This document shows positions 2,690 through 22,788 of a stretch of DNA of 33,824 nt, piece by piece. A program made the position numbers and the translations under genes. The stretch is from Cylindrospermum sp. FACHB-282 (GTDB taxonomy: Bacteria; Cyanobacteriota; Cyanobacteriia; Cyanobacteriales; Nostocaceae), in the NCBI RefSeq assembly GCF_014697195.1, contig NZ_JACJRJ010000059.1, forward strand, positions 1 to 33,824. The letters are read 5' to 3'. How positions within the stretch are numbered: the stretch's first letter is position 1; the number at the start of each line of letters is the position of its first letter. Under the pieces are notes generated by a model. That model ran no database searches and was not told the DNA's origin. It worked only from the letters and a program-made list of their open reading frames with translations.

Positions 2690-3287
2690 AGAAATATATT
2701 TGGGTAGGGCAACTGCCCTGACCATAACTGTTTTAACACCATTTGTTAAATTGGCTCCACCGATCAGAAGATGCTAATTAAAGCCAAATTAGGGTGGAAC
2801 CCTTACTTTGTGTGGCTGATGTCGTTTTTTTTGAATTTAAATTCTGAGAGGATAATGCTTTTAAGAATTTTAAATGCGGTTTGGACTAAAGGTAGCCATA
2901 GAATCTGTTGATTTTATTAGCAAAGTTGTGAAAACTAAATTGAGATATGTTGGAGAATAGTAAGCATTATTGTGCGATAGCGCTCTTGCGGACTTGATGA
3001 GGCGATGGGCTTCTCTCCGAGACGCTCTGCGAACGCCCCGCTGGATGTGATGGTGCGTATGTTGCCCCATTTGTCTGAGAAATAGGGGTAAAAAACTGAT
3101 ATGCGGGTTCTTTGCCCAAATTCGGCTTTGCTTGGTTCCATCTGGCTTTCAGAATAGCAAACAGCGCCAAGCTTCTTTTGGGGCTGGGGCATATACGGAC
3201 GATCACCCTTTCCGATAAGATGTATATGCTCAAAACAACATCGCCATAAAGAGCAATTCATAGCAACTCAATTAAGGACTTTTATCT
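2690..3287. other. Gene-free region upstream of acpP
   Basis: About 600 bases between the HdrB-like gene and acpP. Frames here on the minus strand show no family features and are treated as chance. It should hold both divergent promoters. A dispersed repeat-like block lies at about 2974-3041. Confidence 0.5.
2974..3041. repeat. Dispersed cyanobacterial repeat block
   Basis: The stretch contains GATGGGCTTCTC followed by GAGACGCTCTGCGAACGC, a wording that resembles short dispersed repeats common in Nostoc intergenic DNA. The assignment is from memory of such genomes; only one copy is in this window. Confidence 0.4.
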
Positions 3288-19438: not shown

Positions 19439-20392
19439 ATGACAATGGGAAAACGAACTCAGGCCCCAGCACTGGAAGTCAGGCTGCTACGGGAAGGCAT
19501 TATTGAATCGCGGCATACTGTCCAGGCTGTTGTCTGTGACGAGCGGGGACGGGTTCTATCCGTTGCCGGTAACTCGGAAACTGCTGCATTTGTCCGTTCA
19601 GCCCTTAAACCATTTCAGGCTCTGGCAGTCACCACCACAGGCACACTGGAACGTTACGACCTCAGCGATCGCGATTTGGCAATAATCACCAGTTCCCACA
19701 AGGGAGCTATAGAGCAGGTCAGACAGGTATTTAACATCCTGTGGCGCACCGATCTTGACCCGACGGCACTCCAGTGTCCAATTCCTCAAGGCAAGCGCAG
19801 CCCTCTGGAATACAATTGCTCTGGTAAACACGCGGGGATGTTAGCTGTTTGTCAGCAACGTCATTGGCCTCTAAACAACTACTTGGATCGTAAACACCCC
19901 ATACAACAGTTGATTCTCGCCAAAGTAGCAGAATTGCTGCGAATGCCTGCGGAGGAATTTCTCACCGCTCACGATGACTGCGGCGCACCCACATATCTAA
20001 TGCAACTCAGTCAAATGGCCTCTTTGTATGCCCTGCTAGCCTCTAGCACTAACTTGGATATGGAGCGCATTGTCCGTGCCATGACTCATCACCCAGTCTT
20101 GGTGGCAGGAGAGGGGGAATTTGACACGGAATTGATGCGCTTAACTCCAGGGGAACTGGTAAGCAAAGCTGGTGCTGAAGGAGTGCAGTGCATTGGTAGG
20201 CTCGGTGAGGGTATGGGATTGGCAATTAAAGTCATGGATGGAGCCAAGCGGGCAAAATATGCCGTAGCGATCCACTTGCTCCAGCAAATGGGCTGGATTA
20301 GTCCCAGCGTGGCTGAACGCCTGTCGGAAAAGTTCATGAGCTTGGGAAAATACAAGCGTTTAGAAGTAGTTGGAGAATTATCGCTTTTGTAG
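19439..20392 (+). CDS. L-asparaginase II family protein
   Basis: A 317-residue protein of the asparaginase II family (PF06089 type), which hydrolyses asparagine to aspartate and ammonia and is distinct from bacterial type I/II tetramers and plant-type enzymes. Family features: VRLLREGIIESRHTVQAVV at the start, FVRSALKPFQAL, ITSSHKGAIEQV, YNCSGKHAGMLAVC, HDDCGAPTYLM, and AGEGEFDTELM. Length is near normal. ATG 19439 is followed by a second ATG two codons on; either may be used. The C-terminal GEGMGLAIKVMDGAKRA block is intact. It follows rsfS-ycf36 after a repeat-filled spacer. Confidence 0.9.
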   Translation: MTMGKRTQAPALEVRLLREGIIESRHTVQAVVCDERGRVLSVAGNSETAAFVRSALKPFQALAVTTTGTLERYDLSDRDLAIITSSHKGAIEQVRQVFNILWRTDLDPTALQCPIPQGKRSPLEYNCSGKHAGMLAVCQQRHWPLNNYLDRKHPIQQLILAKVAELLRMPAEEFLTAHDDCGAPTYLMQLSQMASLYALLASSTNLDMERIVRAMTHHPVLVAGEGEFDTELMRLTPGELVSKAGAEGVQCIGRLGEGMGLAIKVMDGAKRAKYAVAIHLLQQMGWISPSVAERLSEKFMSLGKYKRLEVVGELSLL

Positions 20393-20445
20393 TTGACAAA
20401 CTTTTGACTTCGAGTTATATTAAAGAAGTCGAGAGACGAAAGCAA

Positions 20446-20765
20446 CGCGGGATAGAGCAGCCTGGTAGCTCGTCGGGCTCAACGGTGAAATTAACTAAAC
20501 GCTTATCAGTTAACTTCACAGTGGGCGGCATATAAAGAAACTTATATGCGTTTATCTGTCAAACTCGGGGAAGCCAATAGCGCGGTAATCCCGAACCAAG
20601 CCTCAGAAATGAGGAAGGTGTAGAGACTGGAAGGCAGACACCCTAACGTTAACGACGAGGGTGAAGGGACAGTCCAGACCACAAACTGGTTAATCCAGGC
20701 AACGAAAGTTGTAGATGGTAAGCATAACCCGAAGGTCAGTGGTTCAAATCCACTTCCCGCCACCA
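20446..20765 (+). tRNA. Initiator tRNA-fMet(CAU) interrupted by a group I intron
   Basis: The two exons (20446-20479 and 20723-20765) join to a 77-base tRNA with anticodon CAT. Initiator hallmarks are present: unpaired C1/C72, three G-C pairs in the anticodon stem (GGG/CCC) and an encoded CCA. Stems check out: acceptor GCGGGA/TCCCGC, T-arm AGTGG/CCACT. The interruption lies in the anticodon loop between U33 and C34. It is followed at once by a terminator. A standard tRNA search without intron models could miss it. Confidence 0.95.
20480..20722 (+). other. Group I intron in tRNA-fMet, without an ORF
   Basis: A 243-base intron. Because CA occurs at both junctions the ends can slide by up to two bases; the group I rule (U before, G at the end) selects 20480-20722. 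Conserved core blocks are visible: a P-like AAACTCGGGGAAGCC, a Q-like AATCCCGAACCAAGCC, an R-like TGTAGAGACTGGAAGG and an S-like AAGGGACAGTCC. Peripheral stems include GTGAA-TTAAC/GTTAA-TTCAC and GCATATAA/TTATATGC. No reading frame for an endonuclease fits inside. The intron type is known in tRNA-fMet of other cyanobacteria. Confidence 0.9.
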
Positions 20766-20776
20766 AATTAAAAATG

Positions 20777-20814
20777 AAACCCTGGAATTTGAAAAGATTC
20801 TGGGGTTTTGTTTT
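20777..20814 (+). terminator. Intrinsic terminator of tRNA-fMet
   Basis: AAACCCTGGAAT (20777-20788) pairs over all 12 positions, two of them G-U, with ATTCTGGGGTTT (20797-20808), with an 8-base loop, followed by TGTTTT and more T-rich DNA. It separates the tRNA from the endonuclease gene. Confidence 0.85.
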
Positions 20815-20833
20815 AATTATTTTGATTTTGCAG

Positions 20834-21316
20834 ATGGACACAAAACTTAAAGGAGACATAGCTGAACAAGCAGCTGTTCTTCATGCCTTAAAGCGCGGTT
20901 GGGGAGTTTTGAAACCTGTAGGCGATCGCCTACCTTATGATTTAGCATTTGATGTAGAGGGAACTCTAGTAAAAATCCAAGTTAAATATGCTTGGCTTGA
21001 TGAACCTTGTGGTAATTATGTGGTAGATAATCGCCGTACTAAAACCAATCGGCGGATAATGCTTCGAGAAGTGTATAAGGCAGCAGACTTTGATTTTGCT
21101 TTAGTCTATATAGAAAATATTGACCTGTTTTATATCTTCCCGGTAGACGTATTTATAGACTACGGTAGCGAAATACACCTTGTTGAAGCTAAAAAACGAC
21201 AGCGGAAACCGCGTTCGGCACAGTATCGGAATGCATGGGAGTTAATTTCATCAAAATCTCTAAGTAAAGAATATTGTGACTGTTCCCCTGTCGAACTCGT
21301 TCAAGTAGAGTTTTGA
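20834..21316 (+). CDS. PD-(D/E)XK homing endonuclease, I-Ssp6803I-like, outside the intron
   Basis: A 160-residue protein resembling the group I intron-associated PD-(D/E)XK endonucleases, whose model is I-Ssp6803I from the tRNA-fMet intron of Synechocystis. Visible residues in matching order are E11 (KGDIAEQAAV), D36 (LPYDLAFD) and Q49-V-K51 (KIQVKYAW), a QxK variant of the usual D/ExK. RRTKTNRRIMLREVY is a basic region. In Synechocystis the gene is inside the intron; here the intron is ORF-less and this gene starts 69 bases after the tRNA, beyond its terminator. The frame extends to an ATG at 20774, but that lies in the terminator, so ATG 20834 (MDTKLKGD) is chosen. No obvious ribosome binding site is seen. 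It may be a generic nuclease of the same fold. Confidence 0.8.
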   Translation: MDTKLKGDIAEQAAVLHALKRGWGVLKPVGDRLPYDLAFDVEGTLVKIQVKYAWLDEPCGNYVVDNRRTKTNRRIMLREVYKAADFDFALVYIENIDLFYIFPVDVFIDYGSEIHLVEAKKRQRKPRSAQYRNAWELISSKSLSKEYCDCSPVELVQVEF

Positions 21317-21357
21317 TCTATTCTGGAAGAAAAGCCATCCAAATAGCTCGGAGAAAC

Positions 21358-22788
21358 ATGGTTGTGAAGTTGCAACGACCAATTTTAGTGGGAGGATTGG
21401 GACTGTCCTTTTCCCTGTGGATGTTGGACAGTTGGCACGATTCTATAGTGCAGGTGGGTGAATTTGGGTTATTGAGTGCTTTAGCGGTTGGTGGTGGTTT
21501 GTGGTTATTCCAGCAAAAACGCCCGAAAGTCGGTTTAGAGCAGCTAGATGGTATGCTCGTAGATAGAGCTACCGTGGAAAAAGCGATCGCTAAAACCGAA
21601 GCCTTAATTAATCAACTAGCGCAAGAAGCAGAAAACCATCCCGCCTTAGAGAGACTGCGAGAACAAGTTACTCAGTTATTCTTTGAGTTAGACAGACAAG
21701 AAATTAAACTCGCTGTCACTGGCGGAAAGTCTGTAGGTAAAAGTACTGTTATTCAAGTCTTACAGCAAAATTTAGAGAAGCTACACTTCCAAGAGACAGC
21801 GCCTCTGTTTAGAGAAGCGGGTGACAACCCAGACGCAGAGGTTTTGGCGTCAGTACAAAAATCTGATTTTGTCCTGTTTCTGACAAATGGGGATTTGACA
21901 GACTCAGAATTTCAAGTTTTACAGCAGCTAAAAGCGGCGCATCAGCCAACAATGCTGGTTTTTAACAAACAAGATCAGTATATGCCAGATGAACGCGCCA
22001 GCGTTTTGCAGTCGTTGAAACAGCTGATGCAGGGAAATGTTGTGGCTACGGCGGTGTCTCCTGTTCCTGTGAAAGTGCGGAAATATGAAGCTGATGGTTC
22101 TGTGCAAGAGTGGATGGAACAACCAGCACCAGATATCCAGCAGTTGACGCAGCAGTTGGGTGAAATTCTCGCTATTCAAGCACAGCAGCTAGTTTTAGCA
22201 ACTACCATGAGGAGTGCTAGGTTGCTGCAAGCTGAGGTGAAGAACTGGTTAAATGCCACGAGATGCGATCGCGCCACCCCCATCATAGAACAATATCAGT
22301 GGATAGCTGCCGCCGCTGCCTTTGCTAACCCAGTCCCCGCATTAGATATATTAGCCACTGCGGCAATTAATGCCCAAATGGTAATGGATTTGGGTAAAAT
22401 CTATCAGCAGAAGTTTTCCCTAGAACAAGCGCAAACTGTCGCCGGAACAATGGGAAGTTTGATGCTGAAATTGGGTTTAGTCGAACTTTCGACAAAAGCG
22501 ATTACTACAGTTCTTAAAACTAACGCCGTTACCTTCGTAGCAGGGGGAATGGTGCAGGGTGTGAGTGCAGCTTATCTCACCAGAGTAGCAGGATTAAGTT
22601 TAGTTGCCTATTTTGAACAGCAAGAAATTGCCCTAGATTCAGGAAATGCTTTAAATCTGGATAAATTGCGTCAAACTTTGCAAAATGTCTTTCAGCAAAA
22701 TCAGCAGATGGCATTTTTGCAAGGCTTTGTTAAGCAAGGTGTGAAACGGTTATTACCAGAAACGCAGCAGGTTGAAGTTGTGGGATAA
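21358..22788 (+). CDS. Membrane GTPase-like protein with DUF697-type tail
   Basis: A 476-residue protein. Two hydrophobic segments occupy about residues 8-50 (ILVGGLGLSFSLWML and FGLLSALAVGGGLWLF). A GTPase-like domain follows: G1 motif GGKSVGKST (122-130) and G4 motif NKQD (203-206). The switch and G3 DxxG motifs are not clear. The C-terminal 190 residues (ANPVPALDILATAAINAQMVMDLGKIY and MLKLGLVEL) fit DUF697, a hydrophobic domain found with GTPases. Function is unknown; a role at membranes, as for dynamin- or YcjF-like proteins, is inference. ATG 21358 with GGAG upstream is preferred to an in-frame TTG at 21313 that would overlap the preceding gene. Confidence 0.82.
   Translation: MVVKLQRPILVGGLGLSFSLWMLDSWHDSIVQVGEFGLLSALAVGGGLWLFQQKRPKVGLEQLDGMLVDRATVEKAIAKTEALINQLAQEAENHPALERLREQVTQLFFELDRQEIKLAVTGGKSVGKSTVIQVLQQNLEKLHFQETAPLFREAGDNPDAEVLASVQKSDFVLFLTNGDLTDSEFQVLQQLKAAHQPTMLVFNKQDQYMPDERASVLQSLKQLMQGNVVATAVSPVPVKVRKYEADGSVQEWMEQPAPDIQQLTQQLGEILAIQAQQLVLATTMRSARLLQAEVKNWLNATRCDRATPIIEQYQWIAAAAAFANPVPALDILATAAINAQMVMDLGKIYQQKFSLEQAQTVAGTMGSLMLKLGLVELSTKAITTVLKTNAVTFVAGGMVQGVSAAYLTRVAGLSLVAYFEQQEIALDSGNALNLDKLRQTLQNVFQQNQQMAFLQGFVKQGVKRLLPETQQVEVVG

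Follow-up and report, generated by a model that had tools for sequence, protein, structure and literature searches.

A homing endonuclease gene that has probably left the tRNA-fMet intron and now lies beside it in Cylindrospermum

Results

An intron-bearing tRNA-fMet gene followed by an endonuclease gene

The window analysed here, a stretch of 33,824 nucleotides from Cylindrospermum sp. FACHB-282 (contig NZ_JACJRJ010000059.1), carries at 20446–20765 a tRNA-fMet gene with an intron inserted after U33, directly 5′ of the CAT anticodon (Table 1). A standard tRNA scan of the window found 0 tRNAs and missed this gene, which was recovered by ARAGORN when introns were allowed (run on L001, which is the window's own stretch of this genome). 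The intron matches the group I family RF00028 over 20507–20714 with 56.7 bits against a gathering cut-off of 50 (Rfam); the conserved group I core is matched in both sequence and structure, and self-splicing is putative. Helix names used below were assigned by us from the Rfam alignment, and our reading of P2 by eye is a hairpin with an 11-base loop. The earlier note described the intron as lacking an ORF, and indeed the longest plus-strand ORF that touches it encodes only 43 aa (20404–20535), while a 105-aa ORF at 20542–20859 is on the minus strand.

The gap between the end of the tRNA and the ATG of the endonuclease gene is 68 bases. The earlier note was thus correct in placing the gene outside and downstream of the tRNA, beyond a terminator, and wrong by one base in giving the gap as 69. 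The terminator-like hairpin precedes the ATG at 20834; it is one of 2 such sites in the consensus scan, against 1.1 expected from shuffles, and a hairpin with a T run is seen by eye in the equivalent position in relatives. An alternative start at an upstream ATG (20774, giving 180 aa) was rejected, as the 20 extra residues overlie the terminator and fall outside the Pfam match. The true start of the slr1306/DUF697 flank gene is probably the ATG at 21358. Elsewhere in the genome of the window there is one further, poorer match to the endonuclease, 31% identical over query residues 3–98, against a single good copy at this locus, and the only exact occurrence of the tRNA-fMet 3′ exon word is the interrupted gene itself.

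Table 1. Coordinates of the features at the tRNA-fMet locus of the window
Feature	Position	Strand	Remarks	Basis
Asparaginase II flank gene	19439..20392	+	same position in empty and occupied alleles	PF06089, synteny
tRNA-fMet 5′ exon	20446..20479	+	ends ...GGGCT (U33)	sequence; ARAGORN with introns on L001
ORF-less group I intron	20480..20722	+	243 bases	Rfam RF00028; boundaries, ORF list
Intron segment (about P2.1/P3) to which the displaced gene's 3′ end aligns	20533..20567	+	24/35 bases	
tRNA-fMet 3′ exon	20723..20765	+	CAT at start, CCA at end	sequence, ARAGORN
Predicted intrinsic terminator	20771..20814	+	in the gap from tRNA to endonuclease gene	consensus scan
I-Ssp6803I-like PDDEXK_5 homing endonuclease gene	20834..21316	+	160 aa	PF11645, PDB 2ost, PADLOC
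Degenerate copy of intron core, forming the 3′ end of the endonuclease gene	21265..21299	+		
Right-hand edge of the insert	21311..21323	+	host TTTTGATCTATTC, containing the stop codon of the gene	L102–L109 versus occupied alleles
slr1306 family/DUF697 flank gene	21313..22788	+		NF049994, 736 bits; synteny

The protein is an I-Ssp6803I relative under purifying selection

The encoded protein matches PF11645 (PDDEXK_5) with 180 bits against a cut-off of 26 (Pfam, E 2.8e-53), the homing endonuclease (HEase) model of PADLOC (E 5.4e-71) and, as the only solved structure up to E 1, that of I-Ssp6803I (PDB 2ost, 222 bits, E 2.6e-65), with which it shares 97 of 143 residues (68%), well outside what chance would give. 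The residue order of I-Ssp6803I that the earlier note had picked out is present: E11, D36, Q49 and K51, which we take to be the catalytic residues, are invariant across 45 aligned relatives. Because of the 68% identity to I-Ssp6803I, the site recognised by the enzyme would be expected to be the intron insertion site. An unrelated PDDEXK nuclease was ruled out by the 2ost match and by the grouping with I-Ssp6803I in the protein tree. For 35 closer pairs (dS 0.1–0.6) the median dN/dS of the endonuclease is 0.137, compared with 0.050 for the flank gene in the same pairs, and the endonuclease is therefore under purifying selection.

All relatives are tied to tRNA-fMet

A scan of a genome collection identified 51 related loci, assigned by record title to cyanobacteria, Bacteroidota, Planctomycetota, Chlamydiae, Patescibacteria and further groups, and all 51 are tied to tRNA-fMet. 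The gene is nested in the intron at 20 loci, including the remnant L051, and lies 45–2082 bases downstream of an intron-bearing tRNA-fMet, on the same strand, at 27. Two loci, L050 and L052, have an intronless tRNA-fMet with a broken gene downstream of it. At the remaining two, L029 and L047, the gene is preceded, some 100 bases ahead of position 3001, only by the last bases of a tRNA-fMet and a terminator, an arrangement suggestive of an element that integrated into the tRNA's 3′ end; both genomes have an intron-bearing tRNA-fMet elsewhere. With 51 of 51 loci, and 26 of 26 genomes in the survey described below, chance neighbourhood was ruled out. The identification of the protein as a displaced homing endonuclease is thus borne out by its grouping and by its location, and neither a grouping with unrelated PD-(D/E)XK nucleases nor relatives at unlinked sites were seen.

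Several variant arrangements were observed. Between 0.7 and 2 kb of extra DNA lies between tRNA and nuclease gene at L003, L018, L058, L060, L061 and L071. At L020 the nuclease gene is followed by a further, incomplete copy of itself (3′ exon +675 to +812), and at L075, L076, L077 and L080 an intronless tRNA-fMet is followed by a piece of the nuclease, N-terminal at L080 and C-terminal at the others. Plasmids, searched for a relative of the nuclease as a possible vector, gave no match. Phage matches amounted to 18 records, all below 60% identity (10 of the 18 among the matches listed), and one viral contig was matched. On this contig (L147:2001–2499) a 54% relative abuts an uninterrupted tRNA-Met, with another tRNA close by and no intron, an arrangement that could represent a different or older life style.

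Intron and gene are present or absent together

Among 388 Cyanobacteriales genomes, 26 match the alignment of the endonuclease protein (E 1e-10); the exact word for the tRNA-fMet 3′ exon occurs in 357 and that for the intron junction in 59. No gene copy in the 26 positive genomes is farther than about 2.4 kb from the 3′ exon. Nested genes make up five of these copies, and 13 more follow the tRNA directly; a further four stand 0.8–1.3 kb downstream, and the last four are fragments. The intron is present in 23 of these genomes, the other three holding gene fragments (G045, G077 and G318, three of the four fragments), and in 22 of the 22 with a longer gene (at least 115 model positions). In family f1, which comprises 71 genomes and is probably that of Nostoc, 12 have both parts, one has the intron only (G359), two have gene fragments only and 56 have neither. 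The association gives Fisher p values of 9e-11 within family f1 and 4e-18 over the order, which are descriptive only, since the species are related. A survey of 395 Bacteroidota genomes found the gene in 2, too few for a test of presence and absence.

Relatedness was taken into account on a tree of the upstream flank gene, where gene and intron change together in 13–16 of 16 independent contrasts and never oppositely (sign test, median p 6e-5, with 16 intron contrasts on starred branches). This set holds 88 rows on a quick tree, mixes sampled genomes with loci found via the gene or the intron, and comprises the loci with a long flank-gene match, less three duplicates. The concerted change could be explained by linkage alone, and gain and loss are indistinguishable in it. 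We fetched the loci of 36 of the 58 intronless f1 genomes, three other intronless genomes and 18 of the 36 genomes in the order with intron and no gene match (G359 and 17 others). The earlier note had proposed a comparison of tRNA-fMet flanks, and in the relatives intron and downstream gene are indeed present or absent jointly.

The insertion has a fixed site. Asparaginase II lies upstream of tRNA-fMet at 49 of 49 f1 loci examined, and an slr1306-like gene lies downstream within the fetched stretch at 35 of the 49. In empty alleles (for example L102–L109) the terminator is followed by TTTTGATCTATTC; in occupied alleles the gene stands between the terminator and TTTTGATCTATTC, and its stop codon lies within TTTTGATCTATTC. 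The sisters L011 and L101 differ in both parts, with upstream flanks 94–100% alike per 100-base bin, as do L015 and L082 (90–99%). No clear co-conversion step was found in the flanks of 15 sister pairs that differ in occupancy. One case of exchange between lineages comes from L008. Its short linker between tRNA and nuclease, with the terminator, is 90% like that of the window and only 48–53% like those of L005, L006 and L012, to which it is closer in the flank gene; for its flank-gene sisters L005 and L006 the figure is 52–53%. Much of the descent may nevertheless be vertical, with losses, because the dS of the gene is near that of the flank gene (medians 0.99 and 1.17, from 27 loci, 26 of them with the flank gene); the gene has less than half the dS of the flank gene in 17 of 282 pairs.

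Displaced genes end in a copy of the intron core

After codon 135, displaced genes align to their own intron, over approximately the 3′ strand of P2, P2.1, P3 and the start of P4. Comparison of 33 displaced genes with their own introns placed 17 at one exact offset and 22 within 3 bases, and in 15 of the 33 at most 1 of 500 shuffles scored as high. The tail of L015 scored 27 against a shuffle maximum of 13, that of L006 23 against 16 and that of L009 23 against 14. The window's own tail scored 13, with 1 of 500 shuffles as good, whereas for L018, L019, L020, L023, L033, L035, L059, L062, L065 and L066 at least 38 of 500 shuffles reached the observed score.

Of the fetched introns, 18 came from genomes in which the gene had no match, and a profile built from 10 of them was searched against 49 downstream stretches (L029, L047 and the nested loci being set aside). 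It matched 31 of the 49, of which 30 were at the 3′ end of the gene with E below 1 and 21 of those below 0.01; the best E was 1.3e-8, L036 reached only E 5.1, and the window's own tail matched weakly (3.5 bits, E 0.88). The control with reversed sequences produced 3 hits, none above 4.1 bits. In 19 of the 49 stretches no tail was found at E below 1. Three of these (L050, L052 and L080) have no gene 3′ end; the others, which do, are L018, L020, L023, L033, L035, L060, L061, L071, L073, L074, L076, L077 and four Bacteroidota genes. L018, L060, L061, L071, L073, L074, L076 and L077 belong to the same clade or family as genes with tails, and the tail has therefore been lost or eroded there. Ahead of the ATG the profile search detected nothing of the intron in any of the 49 stretches. 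The tails of the displaced gene L057 and of the fragment L078 seem to extend towards P5 and to be longer than in the Nostoc family.

The frames of the nested genes L021, L022, L024, L025 and L053 continue into the same part of the intron core. Diverged intron core forms the end of many displaced genes in the window's clade, from which we infer that they left an intron, and did so after core creep. For the window's clade, and for it only, the tails reveal a direction of movement, out of the intron. The earlier note had left it open whether the gene was at a stage before or after entry into the intron; the tails point to a later stage, that of exit, and a stage before entry is unlikely in this clade. 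In two further cyanobacteria an ORF-less intron (L120, L128) holds in its P2 loop what, by eye, looks like the start of the nuclease reading frame, and because these apparent first codons are kept, deletion of a nested gene does occur.

How often displacement happened was examined on a protein tree of 61 rows, from which broken genes were left out and in which L067 was read to residue 93 only. The nested and displaced labels need 6 changes on this tree, 1 of them forced by the starred branches alone, and 28 cyanobacterial displaced genes group at 83/88, a branch that is not starred. A single clade of all displaced genes was rejected by the AU test (p 0.018; the test was run after inspection of the tree), whereas one clade of the cyanobacterial displaced genes was not (p 0.355). 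At least two separate displacements, one cyanobacterial and one in Bacteroidota, are thus likely.

Uninterrupted targets occur beside broken genes

Among 44 genomes whose endonuclease gene is open none showed an uninterrupted tRNA-fMet gene, against 3 of the 6 in which it is broken (L005, L041, L044, L048, L050 and L052). The search used one exact word and covered 50 of the 51 loci, all except L051; because the word is exact, variant genes and those in gaps of draft genomes would be missed, and the exon of L038 does differ within it. The uninterrupted anticodon word occurs in four of the 50 genomes. G829 and G830 are the genomes of L050 and L052, both with broken genes, and in G825, the genome of L044, whose gene has an internal stop, the uninterrupted tRNA has the unpaired first base typical of initiators. 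The match in G391 is elongator-like, since the first base of that tRNA-Met is paired. This distribution is consistent with continued cutting of intronless tRNA-fMet by the nuclease.

The L044 genome carries, at L146, an uninterrupted tRNA-Met of initiator-like type in addition to the intron-bearing one, in which the broken gene is nested. The uninterrupted copy may be contamination of the draft.

Discussion

In Synechocystis PCC 6803 the gene for I-Ssp6803I lies inside the tRNA-fMet intron (PMC1995217), with a gene–intron overlap tabulated as 61 bases in P1/P2 (PMC3073962). The two systems have in common the protein family, the tRNA, an intron in that tRNA and an overlap between gene and intron; however, the gene is nested in Synechocystis, whereas that of the window is not inside the intron, which is ORF-less, and stands past the terminator. 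In cyanophage S-PM2 the endonuclease F-CphI is encoded by a free-standing gene beside the psbA intron, and the intron blocks self-cutting (PMC6083498). There too a free-standing endonuclease gene adjoins an intron-bearing gene, but the setting is a phage, the interrupted gene codes for a protein and the enzyme is of the Endo VII type, whereas here we have a bacterial tRNA gene and a PDDEXK enzyme, and the genes of its relatives carry intron sequence. No mention of an intron origin of F-CphI was found in the available part of that source. Core creep, the overlap of an intron ORF with the ribozyme core, has been described for ORFs inside introns (PMC3073962). The nested genes that enter the core are likewise examples of it, but in the displaced cyanobacterial genes the tail left by creep has moved out of the intron with the gene. 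In the literature searched, which for the most part did not cover subscription journals, we found no account of a displaced tRNA-fMet nuclease. For phage T3 gene 5.3 and I-TslI, nested and free-standing relatives cut one conserved target. This pair has reportedly been proposed as a route into an intron, whereas the cyanobacterial tail points to a route out.

A free-standing endonuclease gene adjoining an ORF-less intron is the arrangement of collaborative homing, and we regard the locus as a probable variant of that process, or of a mobile intron with its nuclease outside. Since gene and intron come and go together, they look like one selfish element split in two, and it is probable, in our view, that the gene moved out of the intron and that the linked pair is such an element, divided between neighbours. 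In a cyanobacterial ancestor the gene, together with up to about 70 bases from the intron at its 3′ end, would have been placed in the short gap that separates the terminator of the tRNA from the following gene, leaving the intron without an ORF. The protein would most likely still cut intronless tRNA-fMet at the anticodon, the site of the host itself being split by the intron, and repair from an occupied chromosome would copy intron, terminator and gene as a single block. Cutting, specificity, homing and the manner in which the gene moved are steps that we infer. The collaborative homing suggested in the earlier note gains support from the joint presence and absence of the two parts and from the finding that no open gene is accompanied by an uninterrupted target, though linkage alone could suffice.

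That is indeed the most serious competitor: the gene left the intron and no longer drives anything, intron and gene being simply linked. We think this improbable, if worth keeping in view. The two parts lie within 0.9 kb, so that ordinary exchange or loss would take both; much of the divergence fits vertical descent, the flanks have no clear co-conversion step, and six copies of the gene are broken. A protein that drives nothing would not, however, be expected to stay constrained, nor would uninterrupted targets be found beside broken genes and none beside open ones. Furthermore, the intron is kept at L003, L018, L058, L060, L061 and L071 despite insertions of 0.8–2 kb. A free-standing nuclease adapted to the intron site that has yet to enter the intron would match the published model of collaborative homing (PMC3984707, PMC6083498), and might account for the absence of a significant intron tail in the four Bacteroidota genes and in L020, L023, L033 and L035, as well as for the intronless tRNA-Met abutted by the relative on the viral contig. 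For the window we consider this very unlikely, since the ribozyme-core 3′ ends of many genes in its clade would be supplied by a stage within the intron and L120 and L128 indicate that deletion from the nested state occurs. A host role unrelated to homing, such as regulation of the locus or defence, agrees with purifying selection and with the inclusion of a homing-endonuclease model in PADLOC, but is the least credible of the alternatives, as patchy presence, decay in several genomes and the tie to the intron are unlike a host function.

The departure of the gene from the intron may also hold a more general lesson. Homing genes may be able to exit their intron repeatedly and settle alongside, with the host shielded by the intron and both parts driven by the gene next to it, and the cyanobacterial nuclease may still end in translated ribozyme core; the evidence leaves us evenly divided on whether this holds in general. 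Models of mobile introns are mostly one-way, with a free nuclease entering an intron, whereas the sequence fossils described here point out of it. One locus in sequenced cyanobacterial chromosomes, some of them from named culture strains, offers nested, displaced, decaying and empty states side by side, and hence a testable system in which to ask why a nuclease gene leaves, be it for relief from a splicing cost or for expression of its own, and whether unnested pairs home. If true, repeated exit from the intron would run opposite to the usual story in which a free-standing nuclease enters it.
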